A DNA stretch of 40,672 bases. It comes from Bacteroides sp. Its GTDB lineage: Bacteria; Bacteroidota; Bacteroidia; Bacteroidales; Muribaculaceae. Both the position numbers and the translations under genes were made by a program. Location of the stretch: assembly GCA_023666905.1 (NCBI GenBank), contig JAMPBC010000006.1:21770-62441 (forward strand). Reading direction: 5' to 3'. The notes under the pieces are model-generated. The model saw only the letters and a list, made by a program, of their open reading frames with translations, was not told where the DNA came from and ran no database searches. Of this stretch, positions 16,911 through 34,310 are shown one piece after another. How positions within the stretch are numbered: the first letter of the stretch is position 1; every line of letters begins with the position of its first letter.

Positions 16911-19900
16911 AACTTAAAAAACTGACCATTGACAACATAGCTTCTATTGAACATGCCGAAATTGACTTTGAGCAGGAGCCATTGGCCGGGAGTGAAGTGT
17001 TTTTGATAACCGGCAAGACCGGAGCCGGCAAATCGACAATTCTCGATGCAATTTGTCTGGCACTGTATGCAACCACCCCCCGAATGGTCAACAACAGAAT
17101 GCAAGGCGATGCTCCTGACGGTGAACAAAGCCTTACGTTAAGAGATGCCCGACAGCTGATGCGGCGCAACACCGGTTCATGCTATGCCAAGCTCACTTTT
17201 ACAGGCTCAAATGAAATTGATTATGAGGCCACATGGGCAGTGGCACGTGCATATAACAAACCGGGGAGAAAGCTCCAAAGCAAAACGTGGACACTAAAGT
17301 CGGGCGCAACAGGAAAAACGCTTACTAAAGACCGAGAAATAGAAGCTGAAATCAACTTAGCCATAGGACTAGATTTCAAGCAGTTTTGCCGGACCGTGAT
17401 GCTTGCGCAAGGTGATTTCACAAGATTTTTGAACAGCACTGACAATGAAAAAGCCGAGATTCTGGAAAAAATTACCGGAGCCGATGCCTATTCCCGAATT
17501 TCAGCAAAAATATTCGAACTGACATCAAACAAAAAAGCTGAATTAGAGAATGCCGCACAGAAAGTGGAAGGCGTAATCCTATTGAATGATACCGAAATTA
17601 ATGAACGGAAAGAGCATATCGGGCAAACAGATGCTGCAATAAGACAAACCGCCAGCAATATTGATTTGATAAAAAGCCAACTGCTTTGGCTTGAAAACAT
17701 CAATGAATTGTCTCGTAAACAGGCCGATGCCGTTAAACAGCTCCGGGAAGCTGAATGTGAACGCAATTCAGTCGGTTTTAAGGAGAAGGAATTGACCGTA
17801 ACACAGTGGACCTCAACAGCCAATGCCCGCGCCTGTATTGACCAAATTGAAAAGGACACTGCCACTATTCAAATTTTGAAAGTGGACCTTGACAAACTCC
17901 AAATCCAATACAGAAACCTAAAAGGAGGCGTCCTGCAAGCCACTCACCGCCATGCAAAACTTATAGAAAAGCTTCAAGAAATAGAGCGCAACCTGAGCAT
18001 ACTTGAACCGGACAAAGAGGTGTTTGCCAACATTGGAACTATAACAGAACTTATCGGGCAAAAAAATAAATGCCATGAAGTGATTAAAAACTCCCGGGCC
18101 AAAATTGTGGAATTGGAAGAGATGCTTGTGAAGCTAAAGCCGGAACAGCTTTCAGCCTGCCAAAGATGTGAAAACTTGGCTAATTCCGTGAATTCATTGG
18201 AAACAATCATAACGTCAAAAACCGAGAGCCTTAGTAAAGAAGAGGTTGAAAAATTACGCATGCGGCGCGAGCAGCTCACGCAATTAAACGGGAACCTTAC
18301 ACTTGCCTTGGACAGATTGAAATCCCGCGAAAACGCCATAAAAGCCGTTGCTGAAGAACGTCAATGGATTGAGAATGAACAAACGGCTCTTACAAAAATG
18401 AAACATACCATTGAGGAGGCCACAAAAGATGTTACACAAAAAGAGGTTGCAATGACTGAAGCAAAAATTGCTTTGGAAAAACAGCGTGACTCCGTTGACA
18501 AATTTGCCCGACAGATGCGTTCACGACTTCAACCGGGCGACAGTTGCCCGGTGTGCGGACAAAAAATATCTGCTTCGTTGCCCAGTGATGAGGATTTGAA
18601 TTTACTTACATGTGTGGCACAAGAGGCCTTCAATATAGCGGAGCAAAATCACAAGAATTCCCTCAGTGTGGAAATGAAACTAACGGCTGAATTTAAAACA
18701 AGAACAGTTCAACTGGACAAAGCAAGCAAACGACTGGCCACCGACAAAAGCGTAGAGGAAAGCACAAACGCTTTGGCAGCCTGTTTGAAAAGTTGTGGTT
18801 TGGATGAGCGTTCTGAAAATATAGAACAGGAAATCAACCAAAAGAAACATGACAGTGCTGAAGAATTGCGACTGCTATCCACAAAAATTTCCGCAATAGA
18901 AGTTCGTGAAAAAGCACTTCGAACAGAAGCTGAGGAATTGGGAAAGATTAGAAAACAACTCCAAAAAGAAACAGAAACCAAATTAGAATTGGAAAAGAGA
19001 AGTGCCGAATACAAAAAGGGTATCGAGGCAGCTACGGAGCTGTGCATGCTTAAAACAAAAGAGTCCGCAGAGGCATCAAGCAGAATTGAGAGATTAACAT
19101 CCAACAGCCGATGGAACTGCATAAAGAATGAGGCGGAAGTTCTCGCAGATATAAAACATGCAGCCGCAAGATACTCTGAACTTAATGAAAATCTTGGTAT
19201 AATCACCGACCAGGCCACAGAGCTGAGAGCGGAAATTGAATTGGCTGTGGAGCAGATGGAAAACATTGAGAGTGCGATACCTGAATGGAAAACATCGGAA
19301 TGTCCATCAAACCAGACTGATTACCGTGAGCTGAAGCGCCGGGCAACGCAGCTTGGCATTGAGGTCGGACGCATAAAAGCTATGTCGGACTCGGCTTTAT
19401 CAGCCCGGAATACCCGCCAATCTGAGTTGAATGAATTTTTGCATACTCATAAAGAAATTACGCTTGAACGGCTCAAGCATCTGGCCAGTCTCAACTCAGA
19501 ATTAATTAAGTGCATTAACAACGAAATTACCGACGTGAACGGACGTGAACGCGCCGGAAGGGCATTGCAACAAGAATGGACAGGTAAATTAATAAAAGCA
19601 TTGTCGTCACGCCCATCAATGGAATTGTCGCCCGACAAAGGAACTCTTGAAACAGAACAAGCAGCCAAAGAGAAAGAGTTGACAACCCTGATGGAAACGA
19701 AAGCATCCATAACAGCGGAACTCACTGCCGATGCCAAAGCCCGCGACAAAATTAAAGATTTGATTTGCGAACGTGAAAAATGCCGCGACGAATACCTGAA
19801 ATGGGAAGCTTTGAACATGTTGCTGGGAGAAAAGAATGGAGGCAAATTCCGAAAAATAGCCCAAAGCTACATCTTGGCGTCGCTCATTGACAATGCCAAT

Positions 19901-20293
19901 AAATACATGGCCCAGCTAACTGATCGCTATACGCTCTCCGTTATCCCCGGAACCTTTGTAATAACTTTGGCGGACGCCTATCAGGGATATACCACACGCT
20001 CAGCTGCCACTATATCGGGTGGTGAAAGTTTTCTCGTTTCGCTATCGTTGGCATTAGCATTAAGCGATATTGGAAGCCGACTGTCGGTTGACACACTGTT
20101 CATTGATGAAGGTTTCGGATCGCTAAGTGGCGAACCGCTGCAAAATGCCATAGCCACCTTACGCACCCTACACTCCACCACCGGGCGCCGTGTGGGGATA
20201 ATCAGCCACATAACCGAACTCCGGGAGTGCTTGCCGGTTCAGATAAAGGTGGAGCGAGAGGGTAACTTTTCAGCAAGCAAAATTGAAATCTAA
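16907..20293 (+). CDS. sbcC: DNA exonuclease SbcC (Rad50-type ATPase subunit)
   Basis: 1128 residues. The Walker A motif GKTGAGKST is at 36-44. Two long coiled-coil arms rich in Glu, Lys and Ala flank a zinc hook CPVC at 547-550, near the middle as expected. The ABC signature SGGE starts at 1037, and Walker B with the catalytic pair Asp1067-Glu1068 is in LFIDEGFGSL. The dimer clamps DNA and drives SbcD nuclease activity through ATP. All key motifs are intact. A reading frame on the opposite strand in this region is a by-product of the coiled-coil composition. Confidence 0.97.
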   Translation: MKLKKLTIDNIASIEHAEIDFEQEPLAGSEVFLITGKTGAGKSTILDAICLALYATTPRMVNNRMQGDAPDGEQSLTLRDARQLMRRNTGSCYAKLTFTGSNEIDYEATWAVARAYNKPGRKLQSKTWTLKSGATGKTLTKDREIEAEINLAIGLDFKQFCRTVMLAQGDFTRFLNSTDNEKAEILEKITGADAYSRISAKIFELTSNKKAELENAAQKVEGVILLNDTEINERKEHIGQTDAAIRQTASNIDLIKSQLLWLENINELSRKQADAVKQLREAECERNSVGFKEKELTVTQWTSTANARACIDQIEKDTATIQILKVDLDKLQIQYRNLKGGVLQATHRHAKLIEKLQEIERNLSILEPDKEVFANIGTITELIGQKNKCHEVIKNSRAKIVELEEMLVKLKPEQLSACQRCENLANSVNSLETIITSKTESLSKEEVEKLRMRREQLTQLNGNLTLALDRLKSRENAIKAVAEERQWIENEQTALTKMKHTIEEATKDVTQKEVAMTEAKIALEKQRDSVDKFARQMRSRLQPGDSCPVCGQKISASLPSDEDLNLLTCVAQEAFNIAEQNHKNSLSVEMKLTAEFKTRTVQLDKASKRLATDKSVEESTNALAACLKSCGLDERSENIEQEINQKKHDSAEELRLLSTKISAIEVREKALRTEAEELGKIRKQLQKETETKLELEKRSAEYKKGIEAATELCMLKTKESAEASSRIERLTSNSRWNCIKNEAEVLADIKHAAARYSELNENLGIITDQATELRAEIELAVEQMENIESAIPEWKTSECPSNQTDYRELKRRATQLGIEVGRIKAMSDSALSARNTRQSELNEFLHTHKEITLERLKHLASLNSELIKCINNEITDVNGRERAGRALQQEWTGKLIKALSSRPSMELSPDKGTLETEQAAKEKELTTLMETKASITAELTADAKARDKIKDLICEREKCRDEYLKWEALNMLLGEKNGGKFRKIAQSYILASLIDNANKYMAQLTDRYTLSVIPGTFVITLADAYQGYTTRSAATISGGESFLVSLSLALALSDIGSRLSVDTLFIDEGFGSLSGEPLQNAIATLRTLHSTTGRRVGIISHITELRECLPVQIKVEREGNFSASKIEI

Positions 20294-20307
20294 TTAAGGA
20301 AATTTGC

Positions 20308-20315
20308 TACCTTTG
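20308..20315 (+). promoter_or_regulatory. Candidate -7 element very close to its gene
   Basis: TACCTTTG matches TAnnTTTG exactly, with ATTG about 22 bases upstream as a possible -33. It ends only 7 bases before the ATG at 20323, so the transcript would have almost no leader. Confidence 0.5.
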
Positions 20316-20322
20316 CCCAAGC

Positions 20323-21945
20323 ATGAACAGAATTGACAAAACGATTGGCATCACAGGGGTAATAATGCTCGGAAGCATTGTTGCCACTTATGTTATAGCA
20401 TCCTTGACATTACTTTTCGGAGGACACATCTCTGCACTTACTGCATTGTTCGGCTTATTTGCCGGGATTGCAATCGGATTTCTGTTCTTCCCTAAAGAGT
20501 CATTGAACATCATTGCAGGAGCCGCTTTGCTGTCAGAAATAATTTCAGGCATCTTCGTGTGGATTGGGAGTTCGCTTTTTGATTTCTCATACGACGGAAA
20601 TTTCTACCATCAACCCACCATAATGGCATTGACCATGGGGTGGAATCCGATTCACGACGCAGCGGCTCCGGTTGAACTGACCGTTTGGTCGCTACATTAC
20701 GCAAGAGCAATGGAAACCGTTCAAGCTGCAGCAGCAATGCTCTTTGACAATGTTGAAGCGGCCAAATGTGTAAACTTTATGCTCATTGCAGCAACGGGAC
20801 TAATTTCTTACAGTGCATTACGAAGGTACACTTCAATCTCTCCACGATTTGCAGCCATAACCGCACTGGTTGCCGTTAGCAACCCTGTGGTTATTTGTCA
20901 ATGCCTGACATTTTACATTGATTACACAAAGTATCTATATTTAATTCTAACCATCATTGCAATCATAGGGATTGCACATGACCGCAAACCATCGCGCGGC
21001 ATTGCGCTGCTTGCCGGTGTAGTTTGGCTGGCAATAGGAACAAAATTCAACATTTTCTTTGAAGAGGGAGTGGCCATTGCCGCCGCTTTAGCATGGCTAA
21101 TGTATAAAAAACTGAACCATGCCGCACTCATCACCACCATAACTGGCATAGGCGCACTGGTTACCGGAGTTCTGATACTCGGATGGCACCCGTACATAAC
21201 GAACTGGATTGGGAATGGCCATCCCCTATATCCACTCATGGGAGAGGGGGCGCTTGAAATCATGGAAGCCCAAACTCCTGCAATATATGAAAATGGCAAC
21301 CGTTTTGTCAACTTCTTCATATCCCTTGCAACGCCTGAACTTTTTGTCACCGTCGATTCACGCAACGGTGCTTTCGGACCAATTGCTATTTTAATATTTG
21401 CAATTGCCTGGTTCTTGCTTTTGAAGCACATAAAGGTGTTTGGCGGTCTGGCCGTTTACATTTCCGTTTGGTGCCTTGCAAGTTGCTTCTTTTTCGAACA
21501 ATCGTGGTGGGGACGCTATGTTTGCCAATTATGGCTTCCCGTTCCATTGGCAGTAGCGGTTTCGTTTCAGGCGGCTAAACGAATTATTCCAATACTGCTT
21601 AGTTCGTTGGTTGTCATCACTGCATTATTGTGCACCTCTTCTGTTTATTATTCCTCTTTAAGGCGGACCCTTTTCCGCAAAGCCGTGTGCAACGCTCTTA
21701 AAGATGAGATTGTGGAAGCCCGGAACCTCAACGTCGCATTCCGTCAACAATTGGAACAAGGGGGCATTCAAGTATTTGAGAGCAAATCTCTTAACGCCGC
21801 AGACTACGGCATAATGTACTTTTTTGGATTTACAGGTGAAGAAAAACCGATTTTGAAACTTAACGAAGACCAAATTACATCCGTTAGACTGGAATTTTAC
21901 ATAACGCCATTTAATTATTCAGAAGTGACAGAAGGATGGGAATGA
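20323..21945 (+). CDS. Polytopic membrane protein, GT-C glycosyltransferase-like
   Basis: 540 residues with about 11-12 hydrophobic helices, starting with two close together (about 10-55). The first large outer loop, after helix 3, holds DGNFYHQP at 91-98. An acidic residue at the start of this loop is the catalytic base of GT-C enzymes that use polyprenyl-phosphate sugars (ArnT, PMT, AftB types); the match here is by position and topology, not by a full signature. The last 100 residues (about 440-540) form a soluble domain. It is the first gene of a four-gene coupled unit with a UbiA-type phosphoribosyltransferase, a HAD phosphatase and an antigen-85-like esterase, so it may use the lipid-linked pentose they would make. 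It could also be an unrelated membrane protein. Confidence 0.65.
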   Translation: MNRIDKTIGITGVIMLGSIVATYVIASLTLLFGGHISALTALFGLFAGIAIGFLFFPKESLNIIAGAALLSEIISGIFVWIGSSLFDFSYDGNFYHQPTIMALTMGWNPIHDAAAPVELTVWSLHYARAMETVQAAAAMLFDNVEAAKCVNFMLIAATGLISYSALRRYTSISPRFAAITALVAVSNPVVICQCLTFYIDYTKYLYLILTIIAIIGIAHDRKPSRGIALLAGVVWLAIGTKFNIFFEEGVAIAAALAWLMYKKLNHAALITTITGIGALVTGVLILGWHPYITNWIGNGHPLYPLMGEGALEIMEAQTPAIYENGNRFVNFFISLATPELFVTVDSRNGAFGPIAILIFAIAWFLLLKHIKVFGGLAVYISVWCLASCFFFEQSWWGRYVCQLWLPVPLAVAVSFQAAKRIIPILLSSLVVITALLCTSSVYYSSLRRTLFRKAVCNALKDEIVEARNLNVAFRQQLEQGGIQVFESKSLNAADYGIMYFFGFTGEEKPILKLNEDQITSVRLEFYITPFNYSEVTEGWE

Positions 21946-22823
21946 GATATAGCGTTATAAAAATATTGAGGCCAAAACAATGGATGAAGAACCTGTTTGT
22001 GGGGTTGCCTATGTTTTTCAGCGCCAGACTCACTGATGCACCCACCTGGTATGCCACACTGATAGCTTTTGTGGCTTTTTGCCTTGTGAGCAGCGCCGTC
22101 TACTGCATTAACGATGTTGTAGATGTGAAATATGACCGGATGCATCCCATCAAAAAGAACAGGCCGGTAGCTTCGGGCGCCATCAAACGCTCCACAGCCA
22201 TAAGTATGGCATGCACATTAGCCATTCTTGGGTTGGGATTACCATCCGTACTCTTGGGAGTGAATGGTGTTTACACCGCGTGCGTCTGCGGGACTTACCT
22301 TATTATAAACCTTGCATATTCTCTATGGCTCAAGCGTGTAGCCATTCTTGATGTAGCGCTGATTGCTTTGGGATTCGTGCTTAGGGTGGCTGCCGGGGCA
22401 TTAGCTTGCGACATCTGGATTTCTCCATGGATTGTGTGTCTTACATTTTTGCTCACGCTCATGCTTGCCCTTGCCAAACGCCGAAGCGAAGTGGCGCTTT
22501 GTGTTGAAACCGGAGTTGAAAGCCGGGGAAACATTTCGGACTACTCGCTGAAATTTCTTGATCCGGCGCTCGCAATGCTTGCAGCAATAACAACTGTGTC
22601 TTACATTATTTACACTGTAACGCCTGAAGTTCAACAACGCTTCAGCAGTGAATATGTTTATATAACAGCCCTATTTGTAATTTTAGGGCTTCTGCGCTAT
22701 CTGCAATTGACATTACAAACCAAGCAGGCTTCCGACCCCACTAAGCTCATGCTTTCCGACCATTTCATTCAAGGCTGCTTGCTTGCATGGGGTGCTACAT
22801 TTCTTTTCATCATCTACCTTTAG
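21942..22823 (+). CDS. UbiA-family prenyltransferase, polyprenyl-phosphate phosphoribosyltransferase type
   Basis: About 293 residues, multi-pass. The opening RPKQWMKNLFV is typical of the decaprenyl-phosphate phosphoribosyltransferase (DPPR synthase, Rv3806c-like) branch of UbiA. The first Asp motif is NDVVDVKYDR (Asn57 to Arg66), followed by HPIKKNRPVASG. The second is in YSLWLKRVAILDVALIALGF. These enzymes transfer 5-phosphoribose from PRPP to polyprenyl phosphate in the inner membrane, the first step to lipid-linked ribose or arabinose. The start chosen (21942) overlaps the upstream TGA as ATGA; an ATG at 21936 is also in frame. It is followed 12 bases later by a phosphatase that could remove the 5-phosphate. 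Confidence 0.85.
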   Translation: MRYSVIKILRPKQWMKNLFVGLPMFFSARLTDAPTWYATLIAFVAFCLVSSAVYCINDVVDVKYDRMHPIKKNRPVASGAIKRSTAISMACTLAILGLGLPSVLLGVNGVYTACVCGTYLIINLAYSLWLKRVAILDVALIALGFVLRVAAGALACDIWISPWIVCLTFLLTLMLALAKRRSEVALCVETGVESRGNISDYSLKFLDPALAMLAAITTVSYIIYTVTPEVQQRFSSEYVYITALFVILGLLRYLQLTLQTKQASDPTKLMLSDHFIQGCLLAWGATFLFIIYL

Positions 22824-22835
22824 AAACTGTTTGTT

Positions 22836-23459
22836 ATGGCAATAAAACCTGTTGTAGCTCTATTTGATTTCGATGGCACCCTTATCAATAGGGATTCATT
22901 TGTGGAGTTTGCGAAATTCTCGCTAAGTCCATGGAGATTAGGAGTGGGAATAATGCGTTCCCTTCCATGGCTGATTTCCTGGAAAATTGGGAAAACGAGT
23001 TCGCATAAAGCCAAGGAACGCCTGTTCAGAAATTTATATAGAGGAGCTCGCGGACGTTGGTTTGAAACCAAATGCCGGTTGTTTGCCGACAAACTTGACA
23101 CAATGGTGTGTCAAGCCACAATGGATGCTTTAAAGCAGTGTAAAAAGAATGAGTTCGATATAGCCATAATTTCAGCAAGCATAGGGACATGGATAAGGCC
23201 GTGGGCCGAACGTCACGGAATTTATTGTGTCATTGCCACGGAGGCGGAAATTGAAAACGGGCGTTTGACAGGTAATTTTGCAACCCCCAATTGCCGTGGA
23301 GAAGAAAAGCTCCGGCGATTTAAAGAATTTGAAAACCGTCAGCGGCGTGGATACGACCTCTATGTTTGGGGTGATTCCGATGGTGACAAACCTCTTATGG
23401 AATATGCCGACAAATCATATCTTGTAAATTCAAAAAACAACACAATAACTGAACTATGA
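22836..23459 (+). CDS. HAD-IB family phosphatase
   Basis: 207 residues, SerB-like HAD fold. Motif I is DFDGTL with nucleophile Asp11 and acid Asp13; motif II is ISAS; motif IV is GDSDGDKPLM. The helical cap between them is basic and hydrophobic (about 25-75), which would suit a membrane-bound substrate. In DPPR pathways a phosphatase must remove the 5-phosphate from polyprenyl-phosphoribose; a HAD enzyme directly behind the synthase gene fits that job, but the substrate is inferred from position only. The stop overlaps the esterase start as ATGA (23456-23459). Confidence 0.85.
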   Translation: MAIKPVVALFDFDGTLINRDSFVEFAKFSLSPWRLGVGIMRSLPWLISWKIGKTSSHKAKERLFRNLYRGARGRWFETKCRLFADKLDTMVCQATMDALKQCKKNEFDIAIISASIGTWIRPWAERHGIYCVIATEAEIENGRLTGNFATPNCRGEEKLRRFKEFENRQRRGYDLYVWGDSDGDKPLMEYADKSYLVNSKNNTITEL

Positions 23460-24265
23460 AAAAAATATTTTTCTTTTTTGCGTTAATGGCATCGCTTTTT
23501 GCCAATGCCACCACAGAGCGCATAGTTGAATCGAAGTACATTACATCGCCTGCGCAAATCACAATTGCAGTTCCCGATGGTTACGACGAAGCCATCACGG
23601 AGTCCTTTCCGGTGGTTTATCTGCTCAATGGGCACGGCGGAAATCACAAATCGTGGGCTTCGATTGTGAATCTTGACAGTCTTGCCACGGTCAACAATGT
23701 CATCATAGTGTGCCCCGACGGCCGCAACTCATGGTATTGGGATTCGCCAATTGACTCCACCATGCAAATGGAAAGTTACATTGTGAAAGAACTTGTTCCG
23801 TGGGTAGACCGCAACTACCGCACCCGTCCAAACGCCGCCGGACGAGCCATAACAGGGCTCAGCATGGGCGGCCACGGCGGTCTTTGGCTCGGCATACGTC
23901 ATCCGGAATTGTTTGCCAACATCGGCTCCACTTCGGGCGGTGTCGACATCCGTCCTTTCCCGAAGAAATGGAACATGGCCGACCGTCTGGGAGACTACGC
24001 TTCAAACCCCAAACGATGGGACAACCATACCGTGGCAACACTTGTTGACAGTATAAAGCCCGGCTACTATAACATTATATTCGATTGCGGCACTGAGGAT
24101 TTTTTCTATAAAGTGAATTGCAATCTTGACAAAGCTTTGACGAAAAAAGGAATCAAGCACACTTACCTCACCGGTCCGGGAGCACACAATCCTGCCTACT
24201 GGCGCAAATCAATACAGCCCCAGCTCCGCTTTTTCAGCGACAAATTTTACCCTAAAAAGAAATGA
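23456..24265 (+). CDS. Exported esterase of the antigen 85 / esterase D type
   Basis: 269 residues with a signal peptide (MKKIFFFFALMASLFANA), so periplasmic or on the surface. Alpha/beta-hydrolase fold: oxyanion region LLNGHGGNH, nucleophile Ser136 in GLSMGG, acid Glu214 or Asp215 in CGTEDFF, and His244 in GAHNPAYW. This family includes acetyl-xylan and feruloyl esterases, S-formylglutathione hydrolase and mycobacterial mycolyltransferases (Ag85). The last gene of the coupled operon, it may add or remove acyl groups on the glycan made by the upstream enzymes. A stand-alone carbohydrate esterase is the main alternative. Confidence 0.87.
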   Translation: MKKIFFFFALMASLFANATTERIVESKYITSPAQITIAVPDGYDEAITESFPVVYLLNGHGGNHKSWASIVNLDSLATVNNVIIVCPDGRNSWYWDSPIDSTMQMESYIVKELVPWVDRNYRTRPNAAGRAITGLSMGGHGGLWLGIRHPELFANIGSTSGGVDIRPFPKKWNMADRLGDYASNPKRWDNHTVATLVDSIKPGYYNIIFDCGTEDFFYKVNCNLDKALTKKGIKHTYLTGPGAHNPAYWRKSIQPQLRFFSDKFYPKKK

Positions 24266-24314
24266 GCTAAAACCAAAATCCAGTCCCATTATTGGGGAAG
24301 ACTCTCATTCTAAA

Positions 24315-25538
24315 TCATATAAGGTGCGTAAGGTTTTCCTTGCGCATTTTTCTTCCCCGGATACGGCTCACCATTGTTCGCCAGGGACGGAACCAGGCAA
24401 GCCAGGGCACGGTCCAGAAAAGAGGCCGGTCGGCCAAGGCAACGGCTGTCCTGCGCCATTGGGTCATTGCTATGAAGCAATAAGTAACTGAAAGAACAAA
24501 AGCTGCAGCCGCGGGAATAAGGCTCGGCAAAGCCACAATGGATGAAGCCACAGCGCAGAGCATCCACAGCCACCACAACAATGAAGATAACGATTGCGTT
24601 AAATATGGCTTGGAAGGAAGCATTGAAGCAGTAAAATCGCGTCTGATTCGCTCAACACGAGCCATTTGGTCCGGTTTTGATTCTATAATCACCACACGCG
24701 AATCATCGCTAAGTTCCACAGCCGTATTCCGCCCCGTCGCAATTTCATGGAGAAACACATCGTCATCGCCATAACGAAGATGAAGTGTGTTGGAAAATCC
24801 CTTGTGGTCAAAAAACAGCTGGCGGGTATAGGCCATGTTACAGGAAGTCCCTCTTATTGGCTTATGGCAAATGGCGGCCGACAGCCAACGAACTGATTCC
24901 AGAGTCCGATCCCAACTGTAACGGCGGGAGAGCGAAGGGCAATCTTCGGCCGCACGTAACTCGGCGTAGCCCAATACAACTTCCGCTCCGGTAATAAAAT
25001 GACGCGTCAGACTTCTCAACCACACGGGCGACGTGATGCGGCAATTGCCATCGGTCAACACCACAACTCCGTATCGGGCTGCTTTTATGCCAAGTGTTAT
25101 GCTCAATTTGCGCCTTGACAATGAACGGGAGCGCTCCGGAGCGAACGTCATGTAGAGGTTCTGATAATATAGTTCAAGTTCTGAGACTATATCCTCGGTA
25201 TCATCATCGGTCTCATCATTAACCACAATAACCTCCATGGGAGCCGGATAGTCCTGCTGAAGAATTTGAGGAAGAAGAGTGCGAAGATTATTCGCGGCGC
25301 CCTGGGCATAGACAATCACCGATGCCGAAGGATAGCCCTCCGTGGGAAGTGGTGCAGAATTATCGGAGGTGACCTGCCGGCGCACGCGCCATAATTTTGG
25401 CCATATAAGACATGCTGAAAGGGCCATGAACAACACCATGGCACCCAACAAGCACCACGCCGCCACCGGCACATTTATGGAATATAGACTTGCGTCAATC
25501 ATAGGCAAAATAAAAAAACAGCTGATAAACAGAGCCAT
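24315..25538 (-). CDS. Membrane-bound GT2-family glycosyltransferase
   Basis: 407 residues. An N-terminal membrane helix (about 20-45) is followed by a GT-A domain: nucleotide-binding strand ASVIVYAQGAANN, VVNDETDDDTED, and TDGNCRI at the place of the DxD motif. A later RYGDDDVFLHE is the acceptor acidic motif, and RIRRDF takes the place of the Q/RxxRW motif. Two to three helices follow near 325-370. The arrangement resembles processive or lipid-anchored GT2 enzymes of poly-N-acetylglucosamine or hyaluronan type, but the altered DxD leaves activity open. It is a single gene, convergent with the esterase operon. Confidence 0.85.
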   Translation of the reverse strand: MALFISCFFILPMIDASLYSINVPVAAWCLLGAMVLFMALSACLIWPKLWRVRRQVTSDNSAPLPTEGYPSASVIVYAQGAANNLRTLLPQILQQDYPAPMEVIVVNDETDDDTEDIVSELELYYQNLYMTFAPERSRSLSRRKLSITLGIKAARYGVVVLTDGNCRITSPVWLRSLTRHFITGAEVVLGYAELRAAEDCPSLSRRYSWDRTLESVRWLSAAICHKPIRGTSCNMAYTRQLFFDHKGFSNTLHLRYGDDDVFLHEIATGRNTAVELSDDSRVVIIESKPDQMARVERIRRDFTASMLPSKPYLTQSLSSLLWWLWMLCAVASSIVALPSLIPAAAAFVLSVTYCFIAMTQWRRTAVALADRPLFWTVPWLAWFRPWRTMVSRIRGRKMRKENLTHLI

Positions 25539-25574
25539 TACTCTTAACGCTGCGGCTCACGTTCAGTTCAGCGG

Positions 25575-25582
25575 CAAAGGTA
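25575..25582 (-). promoter_or_regulatory. Candidate -7 element for the GT2 gene
   Basis: TACCTTTG on the minus strand matches TAnnTTTG and lies 36 bases upstream of the GT2 start at 25538. Confidence 0.45.
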
Positions 25583-25682
25583 CGAAATTCCAATGACAAA
25601 TTCCCCTACACCTTCACGCAATATTTATCAACACATTTACGTTTTCATTTGAAGAGCATAAATCCACATTTCGTTTGTAGCA

Positions 25683-27104
25683 ATGGAGAAAGCCGCAACA
25701 CCGGGCAGAGGAAAAAAATTCATGAAGGACCTTGGCATTTATGCCATAGGTAGCCTTGGCTCCAAGCTAATCACATTTCTGCTCCTCCCTCTTTACACAT
25801 TCTTTATTACCGACCCGGCTGATTTCGGATATTACGACATCTGCCTCACAATTGTGTTCGCACTTGAACCGCTGTTAGGTTGCCAGCTGTCCGATGGTGG
25901 TTTCAGATTCCTGATTGAAACTGACCGGATTGAACGCCAACGCACAATTATAACCTACGTTGTAAAGACTCTGCTGCGGAACTCACTGATTCTTATCGGT
26001 ATTGGCATTTGCGTTGGATTGGTGGAGGATGTCAAATACCTCTGCTTCATTGTGGCTTACAGCATTGTGTTCACCACTTACGATTATTCCAACCAACTCA
26101 CCCGCGGGCTGGGGCAATTGAAAACCTACATGTCAGTGAACATATTCACGGCATTTGCAGTTGCTTGTTTTTCGGTGCTCACTGTCGCTGTGCTTGGATG
26201 GGGTGTTCCCGGGTTGTTCATTGCCAACATTGGCGCACGCATCTGCAGCCTGATTATTCTGCAAATCCGGATAGGATTATTTTCCAAATACATAACATTC
26301 CGCCGGCTTGACAAAACATACGTACGGGAACTGCTTCACTATTCGCTTCCGTTGGTTCCCATGATGATGCTGTGGTATGTTCTCAATTCCAACAATGTTT
26401 TCTTCATCAAGCATTTTTTAGGGCTACGGGAGAATGGCATTTTCGCTGTACTAAGCAAGTTCGCCGGAATAATTTTCACTCTGACAAGTGTATTTTATCA
26501 AACTTGGCAACAAAACGCTTTTGAGCAATACAACACTCCGGACAGAAACAGATTCTTCACAACCATTCTCAATAATTACATATTACTCCTTACCTTCATA
26601 GCTTCAATATTTCCATACGCGCTCCGATTGGTATATCCCTGGATTGTGGGGCAGGAATATCAGGAAAGCTCCAACTATCTGTCAATTATAACGCTTTTCA
26701 CCGTAGGCTTCTCAATATCTGCTTTTTTGGAAGTCCTTTACCAATGTGCCAAACAAACCAAACGCATAATGATTTCAGTGTCAATTGGCATTCCCACAAA
26801 CATTCTATTAAATTATCTACTGGTTATTCGGTGGGGAATCTATGGGATTGTAATATCCAATGTGATAACCTACGTGGTGATGATAATTTACCGAGCCATT
26901 GACACACGTAAATATGCCAAACTCTCAGTGCATCGTAACAGTGTGATAGCCATCGCGATAATGTTTGGATCAGGCATACCGTATTATTATTGGCAACAAC
27001 CGCTTGCCGATATTATTCTATCCATTTTAATAATTGCTGTTTTTTTACTACTTTTGCCAAAAGATGTTGCGACATCCCTGAAATCCCGCTTGAAACTGAA
27101 CTGA
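25683..27104 (+). CDS. Polysaccharide flippase (Wzx/MVF-type lipid-linked oligosaccharide exporter)
   Basis: 473 residues with about 12-14 hydrophobic helices and few charged residues between them. The start, DLGIYAIGSLGSKLITFLLL, followed by PADFGYYDI, is the usual opening of the polysaccharide-biosynthesis (Wzx/MOP superfamily) exporters. It should flip undecaprenyl-linked repeat units across the inner membrane. It begins a plus-strand set with Wza-, Wzy- and Wzz-like genes, which supports a Wzy-dependent capsule, exopolysaccharide or O-antigen route. Confidence 0.9.
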   Translation: MEKAATPGRGKKFMKDLGIYAIGSLGSKLITFLLLPLYTFFITDPADFGYYDICLTIVFALEPLLGCQLSDGGFRFLIETDRIERQRTIITYVVKTLLRNSLILIGIGICVGLVEDVKYLCFIVAYSIVFTTYDYSNQLTRGLGQLKTYMSVNIFTAFAVACFSVLTVAVLGWGVPGLFIANIGARICSLIILQIRIGLFSKYITFRRLDKTYVRELLHYSLPLVPMMMLWYVLNSNNVFFIKHFLGLRENGIFAVLSKFAGIIFTLTSVFYQTWQQNAFEQYNTPDRNRFFTTILNNYILLLTFIASIFPYALRLVYPWIVGQEYQESSNYLSIITLFTVGFSISAFLEVLYQCAKQTKRIMISVSIGIPTNILLNYLLVIRWGIYGIVISNVITYVVMIIYRAIDTRKYAKLSVHRNSVIAIAIMFGSGIPYYYWQQPLADIILSILIIAVFLLLLPKDVATSLKSRLKLN

Positions 27105-27162
27105 AAGGGAAATGGGACTTCGCACTACAACAGATCGCCACAAAATCGTCACATAAAGCAAT

Positions 27163-27972
27163 ATGTTTAAATCAAATACGTTTCCCATCCTGCTTTTAAT
27201 CGCATGCATTTTCTGTTCTTGCAGCACAACTAAAAAAGATCTTGCATTTTTTCAGGACCTCGCCGACTCTAACTCAGGCACTCTGCCAACAATTCCATAC
27301 ACCAACACCGTAGAACCCGAATCGGAACTGGTTATCACGGTTAATGCAGACAACCCGGAAGTGGTGGCCGACTTTAATCTGCCTTATTTGAATCCCACCA
27401 CTCCTCGCTCACTGAGCAGCAATCCTCAGCCCCGCCAGCAAACCTATATGGTGGATAAGGATGGTTATATTGATTTCCCAAAACTCGGTAAAATTCATGT
27501 TGCCGGCATGACAACCTATCAAATCAAGGATTATCTTACGAAACGCATTTCGGAATATGTGAAGAATCCCATTGTCAACGTTACGTTAAACAGCTACCGT
27601 ATTGTTGTTATGGGCGAAGTAAACAATCCTAACACATTCTTCGTCTCCAATGACCGTTTCAGTGTGCTTGACGCACTTGCGGAAGCAGGCGGCTTGAGCG
27701 ATTATGCTCTTCGCGACAACATATTGGTACTCCGACGCAATGACAAAAACCAAATAGAATATACTCGCCTGAATCTTCACAACTCAAACATAACCCAAAG
27801 TCCCTGTTTCTGGCTGAAGAACAATGATGTTGTGCTTGTTTCACCAAACCAGATTAAGGAAGAGAACTCAAAATATAACACAAACAACGCCTATAAGTTA
27901 TCCGTCATATCCACAATTGTGGGTATGAGTTCGGCAATTATCTCCCTTATCATAGCATTAGCCGTAAAGTAA
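27163..27972 (+). CDS. Wza-like polysaccharide export lipoprotein
   Basis: 269 residues. The lipoprotein signal ends IFCSC with the lipidated Cys at 20. A polysaccharide-biosynthesis/export (Poly_export) domain follows, with YMVDKDGYIDFPKLGKIHV and LTKRISEYVKNPIVNV. A SLBB-like segment comes next, with VMGEVNNPNTFFV and VLDALAEAGGLSDYA. A hydrophobic C-terminal helix (about 247-267) spans or ends at a membrane, as in many Bacteroidetes Wza proteins. It would form the periplasmic and outer-membrane channel for the polymer. It is followed after 4 bases by the polymerase gene. Confidence 0.93.
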   Translation: MFKSNTFPILLLIACIFCSCSTTKKDLAFFQDLADSNSGTLPTIPYTNTVEPESELVITVNADNPEVVADFNLPYLNPTTPRSLSSNPQPRQQTYMVDKDGYIDFPKLGKIHVAGMTTYQIKDYLTKRISEYVKNPIVNVTLNSYRIVVMGEVNNPNTFFVSNDRFSVLDALAEAGGLSDYALRDNILVLRRNDKNQIEYTRLNLHNSNITQSPCFWLKNNDVVLVSPNQIKEENSKYNTNNAYKLSVISTIVGMSSAIISLIIALAVK

Positions 27973-27976
27973 TTGG

Positions 27977-29245
27977 ATGATACGTATTGACCGAGTTTGC
28001 GTATGGCTATTAATTGGTTGCCTTGCTTTTCTAACGCCCAGTTTTATAGTCTTCGGATTCGCTGATGAAATATTCAGCGCTTTATTCGGTATCATAGCGT
28101 TTTTTGACTGTATTGTCAATCATAATTGGAAAAAGTATAAATTATTGTGGATTATGATGGCTGTTTTGACACTATATGCCGTTTACTCCACAACTCTTGG
28201 ATTCAACACAATTTCAAGCATTATCATAGATTGGGTAATCTGCCTGAAACCATACATACCGTTTATGGTATTATATGCTGTTGCACCAACACTTACTGAA
28301 ACCGACAAAAAGACACTGCGAGTTATTTCAATCATAAATCTTGCATTCTCAAGTGCAGTGCTATGTGGAGGCACCACAGTGCTAAAGGCCGTACTGTCGC
28401 AGCCATACGTACCGGGAGTAATTATTTATATATCGGCATGCGTTTACTTGTATGCCTCCATTGACTCGTATGACAAGATACCATACCGTAACCTTATTAT
28501 CACCATTGTGTTTCTCTCTTTTGGCTTGCTGTGCACAAGATCAAAATTCTATGCCGAATATATTGTAACCTTGTTTTTCCTCTTTATTTATAAACCGGGA
28601 ATTACAAAGCACATCACACTTGGACATGTTACTGTTATAGCAGGACTATGTGTAACCGTCTTGCTTGCCACATGGCAGAAAATATCCTATTATTTTTTAA
28701 TGGGTAACAACACCACTTTTGATGCTGAAACTTTGCAATCGTTTGCCCGACCGGTCCTTTATGCCACATCGGGTTTAATACTCTGGGATTTTTTTCCTTT
28801 TGGTAGTGGTCTTGCATCTTTTGCAACTTTTGCATCGCAAGTCAATTACTCAAACTTGTACTATGAATATGGTCTTGATAAGATTCATGGGTTGTCGCCA
28901 CAAATGAATGATTTTATATGTGATGCATATTATCCTTCGTTAGCCGAATTTGGAATTGTGGGAGTAATCCTGTTCATTTGGCTGTGGTCGTACATTTATG
29001 GTATTATTAAAAAACTATTGCGGGCGCGAATGCCTGAAAAAAGCATGGACTACGTCATTGGCTCGCTTTTAATATTGTTCATACTTATTGAATGTACCAG
29101 CGGAACAACCATCACCCAATCGCCAGGTGTTATTGCCGCCGCCCTATTAGGACTCATCTGCGGAAAAGCAGAAAAAATAAGCACTTCAGAGCCTGCAAAA
29201 AGCTCCAGTTTGAAAAATAATAAGTTAATTTGCAAAAAAATATAA
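27977..29245 (+). CDS. O-antigen polymerase/ligase-like membrane protein (Wzy-type)
   Basis: 422 residues with about 10-11 hydrophobic helices and a large outer loop near 240-320 (SYYFLMGNNTTFDAETLQ and on to DAYYPSLAEFG), the layout of Wzy polymerases and O-antigen ligases. No short sequence signature is diagnostic; the call rests on topology and on the neighbours Wza-like (4 bases before) and Wzz-like (10 bases after). The base composition is clearly richer in A/T than the surrounding genes, as is usual for wzy, which is often horizontally exchanged. Confidence 0.75.
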   Translation: MIRIDRVCVWLLIGCLAFLTPSFIVFGFADEIFSALFGIIAFFDCIVNHNWKKYKLLWIMMAVLTLYAVYSTTLGFNTISSIIIDWVICLKPYIPFMVLYAVAPTLTETDKKTLRVISIINLAFSSAVLCGGTTVLKAVLSQPYVPGVIIYISACVYLYASIDSYDKIPYRNLIITIVFLSFGLLCTRSKFYAEYIVTLFFLFIYKPGITKHITLGHVTVIAGLCVTVLLATWQKISYYFLMGNNTTFDAETLQSFARPVLYATSGLILWDFFPFGSGLASFATFASQVNYSNLYYEYGLDKIHGLSPQMNDFICDAYYPSLAEFGIVGVILFIWLWSYIYGIIKKLLRARMPEKSMDYVIGSLLILFILIECTSGTTITQSPGVIAAALLGLICGKAEKISTSEPAKSSSLKNNKLICKKI

Positions 29246-29255
29246 TCCAACTGCA

Positions 29256-31304
29256 ATGGAACAAAAAAATAATGTTATAGATATTCGCCGTTTCATACGG
29301 GCATCTAAAAAGATTTGGTGGCTGTTTTTGGCTTCAGCAATTATATGTGTTGGCGCAGCCGGATGGTATGTTTCCAGATCGTTACAGAAATTCCCCATCA
29401 CAGGCGAGATGCTCATTGGCGAAGAGTCCATGATTGACGGCGGAGCCAGTGCACTTGCGGCAGCCAAGGCAGGTGGCGGAATGGGACAAATGCTGAAAAC
29501 ATTTTCCATTGGAGGACTTGGAGGTTCAGCTGTGGATAATGAGTTGCTGGTTCTTGGCAGCCACGATGTTATGCTGCGCACCGTAAGAGCGCTTGACCTC
29601 AACCGCTCTTATCTCGGCAAAACAGAAGATGGCACGAAAGCATTGCTATGGCGTAACAGCCCTGTGGTTGTAGCCGCATCATCCGAATATTTCGATACCC
29701 TTGCCACAGGATTTAATCTGAAAATAAAATTGCTGCCCGGAGGCAAAGCCGACATTGTAGCAACTAAAGGTCTCCTGCGAAAAGTTATTGCTGAGGCCAA
29801 GGATGTTAAATTACCGACTCTGTTCTCTACTCCTTTGGGCAAAGTAGAAGTGCTTCGTGGGGAATCATTTGACTCATCGCCCTACAGAACAATAACCGTG
29901 AACGTCAACGGTAACAATCCGGCCGCCGTGAAACTCGCAAAGGATTTGGACATTGCAATAAAAACCAAACTGAGCGATGTGATTTATGTTGACCTTGAAT
30001 GTGCCAACAAAGATCTTGGCAAAGCCATTGTTAACGGCGTAATGGCCGAATATAATGCAAAACGTCTTGACCGTGTGCATGAAACAGCCGTAAATTCAAT
30101 AAAATATTATGACGGCCGCATTGCTGAAACACTTAAGCAATTGGAACAGTCCGAGAAAAAAATGGCTGACTACAAACGCGACAAGCAGTTTTCCGGCACC
30201 GAGTCAGAAGCAAAAGTGCTTACCGAAATGGGAGCTGAGACAAAAGCCATTGTGTTGGCGGCTCAGAACAGCATAAATTACTATGAAACCGTGGTGAAGA
30301 CTCTACGCAACGGACTTAACTCCGACGCTTTGATACCGCAAATGGCAGCAATGGGCGACACATCGCTTATTGCAAAATACAACAAATTGATTCTTGAACG
30401 CCGTGAGTTACGCCAATCGGCCACAGAAGATAACCCTGTGCTTGTCCAGCTCAACCAACGAATTTCCTCCATGGCCGGATTGATTGAATCAAATGCCGAT
30501 ATGCTAATGGCTCAAGCCAAATCTAAACTTGATGCCCAAATGGGCCTCTCCGGCTTGATCAGCAATCGATTGGGACAATATCCTAACATTGAATTGGATT
30601 ATGTTCCAATTTACCGCGACACCCAGTTCCTTAACTCCCTTTACATTTATCTGGTTCAGGCTCGTGAAAATGCTGTGTTGAAGCTATACGCTGACACCGA
30701 TTTGGGCTATGTGTTTGAACCTGCCTACGTTTCCAAGCCGGGATTGCCCATTAAGAATATACTCCTTGTGGTGGGGGCATTTCTATTTGCTTTGATTGGT
30801 TCAAGCATAATCGCCTTGATTGTTATGCGATTCTCACAACGTGTTCAGCAACCCATGGATTTGGCCTTTATGGGCATTGACGCACACGCTTTTAATTATG
30901 ATGACTCAAACCAAAACATGGCCAGGATGCGCACAATGCTGATGTCAGAACCTGACAGACGAGTAATATATCTTGCAGACTTTGCAAACAACAGCAGCGT
31001 CAAAGAAAATCTGTTAAAATCATTTACAGAAGCCGGTCTGGAACCCTCTGTTATCAGCGCCGACACCGACAGCTATCTACTTTCACCTGAAATCAATGCT
31101 GATATTGACAAATTGCTTGCAACCACGCAATACGTCTTTGTCAACACTCCCAATGCCGAAAACATTTTCATGCTTGAGAACGCCATTAGCAGTCGCGAAG
31201 CCTCATTACTCATCATTGTTCCTGATAGCATGAAGCGCAAGCAACTTAAAAAGCTGCTTAAAGGCCAACAAGCCGACAAGGTTTACACACTGATTGTGAA
31301 ATAA
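29256..31304 (+). CDS. Wzz-like polysaccharide co-polymerase with a degenerate BY-kinase domain
   Basis: 682 residues. Membrane helix 1 is at about 22-42 and helix 2 at about 500-525, with a long periplasmic alpha/coiled-coil region between (for example YDGRIAETLKQLEQSEKKMA). A cytoplasmic domain at about 540-682 follows. It aligns by eye with the C-terminal bacterial tyrosine kinase domain: VIYLADFANNSSVKENLLKS sits where Walker A should be, but the GxGKST residues are absent. SADTDSYLLS and VFVNTPNAE replace the Walker A' and B motifs. No Tyr cluster ends the chain. It should set polymer length and link to the Wza-like channel; kinase activity is unlikely. Confidence 0.88.
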   Translation: MEQKNNVIDIRRFIRASKKIWWLFLASAIICVGAAGWYVSRSLQKFPITGEMLIGEESMIDGGASALAAAKAGGGMGQMLKTFSIGGLGGSAVDNELLVLGSHDVMLRTVRALDLNRSYLGKTEDGTKALLWRNSPVVVAASSEYFDTLATGFNLKIKLLPGGKADIVATKGLLRKVIAEAKDVKLPTLFSTPLGKVEVLRGESFDSSPYRTITVNVNGNNPAAVKLAKDLDIAIKTKLSDVIYVDLECANKDLGKAIVNGVMAEYNAKRLDRVHETAVNSIKYYDGRIAETLKQLEQSEKKMADYKRDKQFSGTESEAKVLTEMGAETKAIVLAAQNSINYYETVVKTLRNGLNSDALIPQMAAMGDTSLIAKYNKLILERRELRQSATEDNPVLVQLNQRISSMAGLIESNADMLMAQAKSKLDAQMGLSGLISNRLGQYPNIELDYVPIYRDTQFLNSLYIYLVQARENAVLKLYADTDLGYVFEPAYVSKPGLPIKNILLVVGAFLFALIGSSIIALIVMRFSQRVQQPMDLAFMGIDAHAFNYDDSNQNMARMRTMLMSEPDRRVIYLADFANNSSVKENLLKSFTEAGLEPSVISADTDSYLLSPEINADIDKLLATTQYVFVNTPNAENIFMLENAISSREASLLIIVPDSMKRKQLKKLLKGQQADKVYTLIVK

Positions 31305-31333
31305 ATAGCTCTGTAATACGAACTACAAACTCT

Positions 31334-31366
31334 AAGAGCCTGGCCCCATGATGGGTCAGACTTTTT
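31334..31366 (+). terminator. Intrinsic terminator after the export operon
   Basis: Stem of about ten pairs with one mismatch (arms AAGAGCCTGGCCC and GGGTCAGACTTT, loop around CATGAT) followed by a T run. It lies between the convergent Wzz-like and GT2 genes. Confidence 0.65.
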
Positions 31367-32291
31367 ACCTTCCTAAAATTCGTTGGCTAAGATGTGCGGC
31401 TTGAAACAGCATGCGGTAAGCTAATGGGATGTGACGCAACTGCATTATCCGGGAGTTTACTTGTGGAAATGTTTCATGCCATTTCCTTAAATCCCTGTGA
31501 GGAGCTCTTGCATATTTTATTTTTGCGCAGAACATCAAATGGTCAAGAAACTCATTATACTTGTCGGAGTAGCCTTGTTCATTGAACCAGTCAACAAGTT
31601 TTACGGCAATAGCAATATGATCTGACAGAAGTTTCTCTTTTGAACTCCGAGCCAATGTAACGACACCCGGCCTTTCAAAATAATTATAAACCGGTGTGGA
31701 GATTTGAGCAATTTTTCTAACCTGAGTCATTAATTTGGCCACTATAGCCAGGTCGGCCCAACGGTCCAAACCGGGGAAAGGCTTGGCCGACTCATCCAAC
31801 ACATATGTTTTAATTAGCTTGTTCCACAGAGCAAAATGAGCTGTATCAATTGGCATATCGTTGAGAGAACGAATGTCGGCTTTAGGCGTAACGAGTTTAG
31901 TCTTATCCCCAACATGTTGAACGTATGGAGCGAATACAATGTCAGCGTTGGTTTTAGTTGCCTCTTGAGCGAGCGCCGAGAGTGCGCCGGGACGCATGGT
32001 GTCGTCAGCATCGCAGCACATCACATAAACAGCAGGACCTCCACGAAAGCCATCTATCAGAGCACAAGCGTAACCCTCGCGCATGGGTTTGTGATACACA
32101 TAAGCATTTGAATGGTTTTTCAATCTCTCATCAATAATGCTTCCGGTGCTGTCCGTTGAACAATCATTGATAACAATCAGAATAAAATCTTTGAAATCTT
32201 GTCCAAGAACCGAATCGATTGCTGCCCCGACTGTTTTTTCAGCATTGTAAGCAGGCATAATCACAGCGATATAGGGTTGCGCGGGCATCAT
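31365..32291 (-). CDS. GT2-family glycosyltransferase
   Basis: 308 residues. Canonical GT-A start IAVIMPAYNAEKTVGAAIDS, then VINDCSTDSTGSI and the DxD motif CDADD at about 108-112. It is a soluble enzyme without membrane helices, apart from a short amphipathic C-terminus. It likely adds a sugar from a nucleotide donor to a surface glycan; the donor is not predictable. The start overlaps the AlbA_2 gene stop as ATGA (32288-32291), making it the last gene of the mtnN-luxS operon. Its end faces the end of the polysaccharide export operon, whose pathway it may serve. Confidence 0.92.
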   Translation of the reverse strand: MMPAQPYIAVIMPAYNAEKTVGAAIDSVLGQDFKDFILIVINDCSTDSTGSIIDERLKNHSNAYVYHKPMREGYACALIDGFRGGPAVYVMCCDADDTMRPGALSALAQEATKTNADIVFAPYVQHVGDKTKLVTPKADIRSLNDMPIDTAHFALWNKLIKTYVLDESAKPFPGLDRWADLAIVAKLMTQVRKIAQISTPVYNYFERPGVVTLARSSKEKLLSDHIAIAVKLVDWFNEQGYSDKYNEFLDHLMFCAKIKYARAPHRDLRKWHETFPQVNSRIMQLRHIPLAYRMLFQAAHLSQRILGR

Positions 32292-32959
32292 GAATGTAGC
32301 GAAGGATCTGAAGGCACCAGATGGAACCTTCGGTTAATGAAACGGAAATCAATAACAGACAGCGCGTAAAGTCGCAATATCAATTGCTCGGCTACGTTGT
32401 TTGACACCTTGCATAGTGCAGGAACCTTATCGGGATCAATGAAGCCACTGGAATTGAGCATTGTCAATAAACTCTGCTCCGCCTCCGAGAGTGAAATAAT
32501 GTTTGGCTGTGATTTTAATTTATGCTTCCAAGCCTTCACCATAAGAGGGTGAGCCAAAATATTTTCATCGGCCACTCTGTAGAACGCCTTTAAACTGCCG
32601 TCGGCTTCGGAAACAGAGACCGGCCGACGGGCCGAAGCGTCCACTTCGGCAATAATGACCATGGCCCCCTCCTCGGCCTTGTATGCAGAGAATTTAGGAC
32701 TTTGCGCAGGCTTGCAATATAATTGAGCCGCCTGCTCCACAACATAAATGTCCTCTTCGTTCCGCACTCCGGCAATTGAGCCATTATCCTTGACTCCAAT
32801 AAGTAAACGTCCGCCGGAATTGTTGGCAAATGCGGAAATGGAACGCGCAATCTTCCTGGCATCAGAAATTTGAAACTTAAAATCCTGATGTTCGTTTTCA
32901 CCCTCAGCAATGAGTTTATGAAGGTAATATTTACCGCGTGAGGCGCGAATATCTTTCAC
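32288..32959 (-). CDS. AlbA_2/Schlafen-domain protein
   Basis: 223 residues. Residues about 20-130 form the AlbA_2 (Schlafen-type) domain: EHQDFKF, ISAFANNSGGRLLIGVKDNG, SIAGV and a later EVDASARRPV strand. The C-terminal part (about 155-223) resembles a small winged helix. Members are called ATP-binding or nucleic-acid-binding regulators; the biochemical role is largely unknown. It starts at a GTG that overlaps the luxS TGA as GTGA, so it is coupled to luxS, and it is coupled again to the GT2 gene by ATGA. Its presence in a SAH-recycling operon is unexplained. Confidence 0.85.
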   Translation of the reverse strand: MKDIRASRGKYYLHKLIAEGENEHQDFKFQISDARKIARSISAFANNSGGRLLIGVKDNGSIAGVRNEEDIYVVEQAAQLYCKPAQSPKFSAYKAEEGAMVIIAEVDASARRPVSVSEADGSLKAFYRVADENILAHPLMVKAWKHKLKSQPNIISLSEAEQSLLTMLNSSGFIDPDKVPALCKVSNNVAEQLILRLYALSVIDFRFINRRFHLVPSDPSLHS

Positions 32960-33438: not shown

Positions 33439-33439
33439 T

Positions 33440-34144: not shown

Positions 34145-34175
34145 TATGTTTCGATATTTTTTGTGGTTTCTATTG

Positions 34176-34183
34176 CAAAAATA
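34176..34183 (-). promoter_or_regulatory. Candidate -7 element for the mtnN-luxS operon
   Basis: TATTTTTG on the minus strand matches TAnnTTTG and lies 31 bases upstream of the mtnN ATG. It also supports starting mtnN at 34144 rather than further upstream. Confidence 0.45.
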
Positions 34184-34310
34184 ACAAAACTCATCCAAAT
34201 TGAAAAATCATTTTTCTCACAACGCTTGTCTTCACCAAGAATTGGCAAGTTGGGGCAAAGCAACTTAATGGTAATACACTTGAAACGAACGAGTCGGCCC
34301 AATGAAAATA

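Follow-up and report, generated by a model that had tools for sequence, protein, structure and literature searches.

A candidate lipid-linked pentofuranosylation cassette beside an exopolysaccharide locus in Bacteroidales

The DNA analyzed here (the window: 40,672 nucleotides, positions 21,770 to 62,441 of the forward strand of contig JAMPBC010000006.1, assembly GCA_023666905.1, Bacteroides sp., Muribaculaceae) contains three consecutive genes, encoding a candidate GT-C-fold membrane glycosyltransferase, a predicted UbiA-family phosphoribosyltransferase and a HAD phosphatase. This trio quite probably constitutes a portable pentofuranosylation cassette that acts through the steps proposed below. 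The conserved unit is the first three genes of a run of four, and their linkage is far beyond chance; the fourth gene, an esterase, is a neighbor and not a member of the conserved module. An earlier reading of the DNA letters (hereafter, the sequence-only reading) had taken all four genes as an operon resembling the mycobacterial Rv3804c-Rv3807c neighborhood. The observations made here are the protein families, the predicted fold, the conserved linkage, the lack of a DprE1 match and the position beside an esterase that is also resident in trio-free relatives; the individual reactions, the identity of the sugar and its linkage, the acceptor and the flippase are inferred.

Layout and conservation of the gene trio

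Four intact open reading frames (ORFs) follow one another on the plus strand between positions 20323 and 24265:

20323..21945, + strand: GT-C-fold membrane glycosyltransferase candidate, 540 amino acids (predicted structure)
21936..22823, + strand: predicted UbiA-family polyprenyl-phosphate phosphoribosyltransferase, 295 amino acids (PF01040, NF008978, homology to Rv3806c)
22836..23459, + strand: HAD-IB phosphatase, 207 amino acids (PF12710, TIGR01490)
23456..24265, + strand: CE1-type esterase, 269 amino acids, with an N-terminus that looks like a signal peptide by eye (PF00756)

The Pfam matches are to UbiA (PF01040, E 2.6e-25) for ORF 2, HAD (PF12710, E 3.4e-31) for ORF 3 and Esterase (PF00756, E 8.6e-27) for ORF 4. 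The genes had been described as joined by ATGA overlaps or a 12-base gap; the 12-base gap between ORFs 2 and 3 and the ATGA common to the end of ORF 3 and the start of ORF 4 are indeed present, and ORF 1 and ORF 2 share an ATGA only if ORF 2 starts at the in-frame ATG at 21942, the ATG called at 21936 giving a 10-base overlap instead. The two starts are equally plausible.

The 198 genomes of the family were searched with the single GT-C protein sequence (E <=0.001) and with a profile of the UbiA enzyme (E <=1e-30). The GT-C protein is found in 14 genomes and the UbiA enzyme in 32, with 13 genomes containing both (hypergeometric p 5.7e-11, not corrected for kinship); at the genus level, 8 of the 9 genera with the GT-C protein are among the 14 of 30 genera with the UbiA enzyme (p 0.0035). 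The sole genome with the GT-C gene and no UbiA enzyme, G037, carries a GT-C copy with three in-frame stops. The UbiA enzyme is encoded in the neighborhood of the GT-C gene in 10 of the 14 genomes (G000, G029, G049, G073, G087, G111, G118, G142, G174 and G176), and a HAD gene likewise in 8 of these 10 neighborhoods (exceptions, G087 and G118); in G011, G139 and G151, the two genes are on different contigs. Across the order, the UbiA enzyme is present in 20 of 295 genomes. A scan of a genome-contig collection yields four GT-C relatives, two of which were equated with G111:C14 and G174:C19 (L017 = L022, L018 = L027), and viral contigs and plasmid records contain no relative of the GT-C protein.

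The surroundings of 53 UbiA loci were compared, from 31 of the 32 family genomes (G153 was left out), 18 more genomes of the order, and the loci L019, L036, L037 and L038. Of these loci, 43 have a HAD gene of this kind at most 4 kb from the UbiA enzyme; the other ten are L021, L030, L037, L061 (which has masked stretches next to the UbiA gene), L074, L075, L076, L078, L120 and L122. The same 53 loci include 7 with small multidrug resistance (SMR)-type transporters, 4 with separate GtrA genes and 2 with DprE1 relatives; in L066, a relative of the window GT-C protein (E 2e-103) is found together with SMR, HAD and UbiA. A survey of gene neighborhoods had been suggested as a check on the four-gene set: the first three genes recur together, and the set of four is not kept.

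Several individual loci merit mention. In one genus, L109 and L022 have a common locus of LptF/G-like (by eye), UbiA and HAD genes, with the GT-C gene in between in only one of them. L038 (MT837543.1), a 6.6-kb record described as an unverified phage sequence from human faeces, encodes UbiA, HAD, SMR and a protein related to the membrane protein of L067, and may be bacterial in origin.

The predicted phosphoribosyltransferase and the phosphatase

The UbiA protein matches NF008978 (decaprenyl-phosphate phosphoribosyltransferase) with 208.4 bits, just above the cut-off of 207, and is below the cut-off of NF008976 (145.3 bits against 474); the heme o synthase model gives 46.4 bits and quinone-type models at most 31.6. 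In a single-sequence search, the only convincing relatives of solved structure are two Rv3806c sequences (8j8j, E 2.3e-30), and a 10-member profile retrieves Rv3806c with E 1.4e-64, as opposed to 4e-10 for the next UbiA protein. In a 57-row tree, the protein clusters with relatives from Nocardia and Lactococcus (support 97/89), and E. coli UbiA, MenA and CyoE fall outside this clade, on very long branches. Judging from its sequence, then, the protein is a predicted polyprenyl-phosphate phosphoribosyltransferase that groups with the decaprenylphosphoryl-5-phosphoribose (DPPR) synthases, apart from the quinone and heme prenyltransferases, which agrees with the earlier suggestion of a pathway making a polyprenyl-phosphate pentose. 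Residues N59, D60, D63 and D67 are spaced like N247, D248, D251 and D255 of ORF15 from Citrobacter, and R182/E185 like R366/E369 of that protein, as numbered in the main text of PMC11127046. In the relatives from L022 and L109, the last aspartate of this NDxxDxxxD motif is replaced by asparagine.

The UbiA enzymes of L073, L074 and L076 make up a group of their own, which the tree places close to Nocardia and Lactococcus. Four genes that look alike across the three loci (judged visually by size and initial residues) stand ahead of each UbiA gene, and two of the three loci have no HAD gene nearby.

The HAD protein scores 115.7 bits with TIGR01490 (cut-off 98.3). Residues D11, D13, S115, K158 and D184, which we take to be the HAD active positions, are invariant among 13 aligned sequences including that of the window; this pattern fits an active enzyme. 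Gene fusions in different Bacteroidales genomes provide further clues. In L113 (6673-7722), from the same genus, HAD is fused to GtrA, with PF12710 and PF04138 both above cut-off; in L125 (5638-7944), it is fused to a PMT_2-like membrane domain (PMT_2 25.9 bits, just below the cut-off of 26.1); and in L078 (5260-6735), a HAD-like N-terminus precedes the UbiA protein (NF006088 585.6 bits; Pfam HAD below cut-off). These fusions of HAD to UbiA, GtrA and a GT-C-like protein link the steps independently and, together with the partner arrangements, suggest that phosphatase, flippase, transferase and phosphoribosyltransferase belong to one pathway.

The GT-C-fold membrane protein

Neither Pfam nor NCBIfam has a family that matches the 540-residue protein encoded by the first gene, and a sequence profile of this protein detects no solved relative. 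An AlphaFold2 model built from an alignment of 12 sequences (predicted local distance difference test score 83.8, predicted TM-score 0.90) was compared with the PDB by Foldseek. The top row is AftA (E 2.4e-4, probability 1.00, TM-score 0.44, 13% identity), followed by ALG12, DPY19, oligosaccharyltransferase subunits, PimE, Pmt1, AftD and Pmt4; the best 14 rows are all GT-C enzymes. At the level of the predicted fold, the GT-C label given by the sequence-only reading holds. Its proposed kinship with AftB in particular is not supported: AftB is not among the best 50 of 193 rows, and the nearest fold is AftA. Single members of the protein family give matches to GT87 (E 5.7e-5), PMT_2 (E 0.016) and the LIC_10190 family of membrane proteins (E 1.8e-7). 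Across the 12 aligned sequences, including that of the window, W395, R398 and Y399 do not vary, and D91, Y95 and H96 vary hardly at all. Taken as a predicted GT-C-fold enzyme, the protein points to a GT-C family without assigned function.

An alignment designated A4 (L114, L115, L116, L128, L112, L119, L062 and L113) defines a second polytopic family whose genes adjoin those of UbiA enzymes; the stretch GF.RRG is invariant in it, and no Pfam family clearly matches.

The esterase and the apparent site of insertion

The esterase was originally described as antigen-85-like. Among its 36 matches to solved sequences, feruloyl and tributyrin esterases lead, the best being feruloyl esterase 7xrt (E 5e-29); Ag85A reaches only E 2e-6 and Ag85B 7e-6, so that the description is not retained. 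Of 34 genomes of the same genus, 32 carry the esterase gene (of all 61 searched, 40 do), as against 3 with the UbiA enzyme, and the esterase gene lies within 4 kb of a UbiA enzyme in only one of the 53 loci, the window itself. Thus, of the proposed four-gene operon, four ORFs exist and three are conserved together, and the esterase stands outside the unit.

The esterase is followed in the window by an exopolysaccharide locus:

24315..25538, - strand: GT2 glycosyltransferase of the adjoining exopolysaccharide locus (PF00535)
25683..31304, + strand: Wzx-like flippase (MatE), Wza-like export, Wzy-like polytopic and Wzc-like chain-length proteins (PF01554, PF02563/SLBB); the Wzy- and Wzc-like proteins have no Pfam family and are named from gene order and shape

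Among 15 loci of the genus that were examined, three (G490, G501 and G105), none of them with the UbiA enzyme, have sbcC directly followed by the esterase, the spacing between aligned ends being 65, 105 and 24 bases, respectively (in G501, the first 15 residues of the esterase are unaligned). A convergent GT2 gene comes after the esterase in all three, and Wzx, Wza, Wzy and Wzc are next in G501 and G105, i.e., the order Est-GT2-Wzx-Wza-Wzy-Wzc is kept without the trio. The stretches retrieved for the other 12 loci show no sbcC, which indicates that the esterase is not confined to this site. Given the trio-free sbcC-esterase junctions, the trio seems to have been acquired between sbcC and the esterase, beside the exopolysaccharide locus; its loss from the relatives, instead of a gain in the window lineage, is formally conceivable.

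Proposed pathway

The UbiA enzyme would join the phosphoribose of phosphoribosyl pyrophosphate to a polyprenyl phosphate (presumably undecaprenyl) at the cytoplasmic face of the membrane, and the HAD phosphatase would take the 5'-phosphate off the lipid-linked phosphoribose. The lipid-linked ribofuranose would then be flipped by a protein encoded outside the trio locus, and the GT-C protein would pass the ribofuranose on from its lipid carrier to a periplasmic glycan, the acceptor probably being the exopolysaccharide of the adjoining wzx-wza-wzy-wzc locus, a possible maker of the acceptor glycan. On this basis, ribofuranose is predicted on surface glycans of cassette-bearing strains and not on those of sister strains without the cassette.

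A broader proposal, to which we assign nearly even chances, is that Bacteroidales cassettes combine a constant pair of phosphoribosyltransferase and HAD with interchangeable GT-Cs of several families without detectable kinship, one of which would found a new glycosyltransferase family, and that such cassettes are inserted beside surface-polysaccharide loci and add ribofuranose after polymerization, in the manner of enteric seroconversion modules.

Several results weigh against the assignment of the trio to such a pathway. The fold match is modest (TM-score 0.44, identity 12-13%, E <0.001 in 2 of 193 rows), and hhalign, run against four membrane proteins encoded at other UbiA-HAD loci, detects no kinship with the GT-C family, in a weak test that used single sequences on the side of those loci; accordingly, the shared role is suggested by context. 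The UbiA protein is under the cut-off of the sister model NF008977 (220.4 against 234), and the NDxxDxxxD motif is present in E. coli UbiA as well. The genome G097 has the G111 locus with UbiA and HAD in place but not this GT-C gene, the two loci forming a natural presence/absence pair for that gene. With regard to the flippase, no SMR or GtrA gene was found near the trio or in 11 of the 12 loci with this GT-C family beside the UbiA enzyme, in a search that used one query per transporter type and so overlooks diverged transporters, the four-helix protein of L127 being an example. The genome itself contains no PF00893 match, one GtrA, on another contig, and three EamA proteins of more than 300 amino acids.

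That single GtrA was considered as the flippase; two GtrA proteins and one SMR protein from UbiA-HAD loci did not match it usefully. The downstream Wzx-like protein is a purely conjectural candidate for the donor flippase. The small four-helix protein of L127 (2437-2811), encoded just downstream of HAD and UbiA, is a possible flippase of another transporter family.

Comparison with known systems and alternative explanations

Among known systems, the nearest is the three-component pentofuranosylation of Citrobacter youngae O1/O2, described in 2024 with the enzymology done, in which ORF12 is a GT136 transferase, ORF14 a flippase and ORF15 a HAD-UbiA protein (main text of PMC11127046). Both systems have a UbiA-type phosphoribosyltransferase and a HAD phosphatase, recognized in the window by family and linkage, and a GT-C-fold protein, recognized in the window by predicted fold; the spacing of the UbiA active-site residues and the position beside polysaccharide genes are also alike. 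They differ in that HAD and UbiA are separate genes in the window and fused in ORF15, and no small flippase gene was found near the window trio (L066 has one). Moreover, the window GT-C protein is without a Pfam or NCBIfam match, any kinship of it with GT136 would be conjectural, and the host belongs to Bacteroidales. Changing D31, E34, H106 or R349 abolished all reactivity of ORF12 (main text of PMC11127046); any counterparts of these residues in the window protein would be a guess. By analogy, the most fitting reading of the trio is a split-gene variant from Bacteroidales, for which the Citrobacter system, a precedent that the sequence-only reading did not name, appears to be a better parallel than Rv3804c-Rv3807c.

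A similar set exists in the exopolysaccharide locus of the Lactococcus plasmid pLLF27D (L135), which encodes, in the same order and beside polysaccharide genes, a 533-amino-acid hypothetical protein with about 12 hydrophobic segments, a DPPR-type enzyme and a separate HAD-IB protein. Unlike the window, L135 has a GtrA gene directly after these genes, and its membrane protein has no sequence similarity to the window GT-C protein. Among the papers listed by our literature searches, no account of this pathway in Bacteroidales was noticed; the main text of PMC11127046 contains no 'bacteroid' words, and its supplement holds further candidates. Lipid-linked pentofuranose chemistry is known from mycobacteria and, of late, Citrobacter; the present observations would add a group of Bacteroidales.

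The idea that the four genes are the Bacteroidales counterpart of Rv3804c-Rv3807c (Ag85, AftB, UbiA and phosphatase), with the esterase performing acyl editing, draws on a superficial likeness in gene order and types, on the homology of the UbiA protein to Rv3806c and on the GT-C fold being closest to AftA, the last two being features shared with the mycobacterial DPPR pathway (Rv3806c, Rv3807c, DprE1/DprE2 and GT-C arabinosyltransferases) at large. It is nevertheless very unlikely: the esterase is nearest to feruloyl/CE1 enzymes and belongs to the genus core, there is no Ag85, no DprE1 was found, and the sugar is probably ribose, not arabinose. The phosphatase, as the sequence-only reading had recognized, is of a different family, being a HAD protein to which Rv3807c is unrelated according to the main text of PMC11127046. 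The trio-free sbcC-esterase junctions of G490, G501 and G105 largely refute this counterpart, and the Citrobacter system fits better.

The preferred pathway, in which the sugar stays ribose, can also be set against a version in which lipid-linked ribose is made and an epimerase encoded elsewhere converts it to xylofuranose or arabinofuranose before transfer. There is no DprE1 match whatsoever in the genome, a 2.18-Mb draft of 76 contigs that is 92% complete, so that absence is not proof; the models used for DprE1 and DprE2, NF053785 and NF053786, replaced PF04030, judged a weak test for DprE1 because the DprE1 relative of L071 lacks it. Two short-chain dehydrogenase/reductase (SDR) proteins of the genome match the DprE2 model weakly, with 53-56 bits, far under the cut-off of 250, and no epimerase adjoins the trio. 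Elsewhere, L037 has UbiA with two oxidoreductases, L071 has DprE1-like and DprE2-like proteins (NF053785 426.7 bits, cut-off 500; NF053786 162.4 bits, cut-off 250), and one SDR determines xylofuranose in Citrobacter O2 (main text of PMC11127046). Given the lack of a DprE1 match and the low SDR scores, ribofuranose is favored and the sugar probably stays ribose, in line with what had been suggested from the missing DprE1; conversion by an epimerase is improbable, with a xylose-type enzyme among the other SDR proteins of the genome being possible. The acceptor is less certain: a protein, lipopolysaccharide or another glycan in place of the neighboring exopolysaccharide is a serious alternative, if somewhat short of an even chance. 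In a map reaching about five ORFs to each side, wza/wzc relatives accompany only the trio of the window, the GT-C fragment of L033 and the UbiA enzyme of L122, and a DPPR-type donor has been proposed for pilin arabinosylation in Pseudomonas (main text of PMC11127046); against this, the window trio directly precedes a Wzx/Wzy-type export locus.

As a separate observation, the genes for UbiA, the DprE1-like and DprE2-like proteins and HAD stand in a row in L071 (8941-12494), a candidate arabinofuranose donor pathway.

Other features of the window

A possible regulatory site lies upstream of the trio:

20282..20315, + strand: candidate promoter of the trio, ATTG-N22-TANNTTTG (pattern search)

The motif, which we take to be of the Bacteroides promoter type, ends 7 bases 5' of the first ATG of the trio; the window contains 5 occurrences of the pattern, with 1.0 expected, and the pattern was composed after the site was seen. 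An Rfam scan of 19500-32000 gives no match, and the base composition of the trio is not distinct from that of its flanks. Further downstream (32959-34198, minus strand), luxS adjoins a gene of the nucleoside phosphorylase family (PNP_UDP_1), a pair that presumably has an autoinducer-2-type function.

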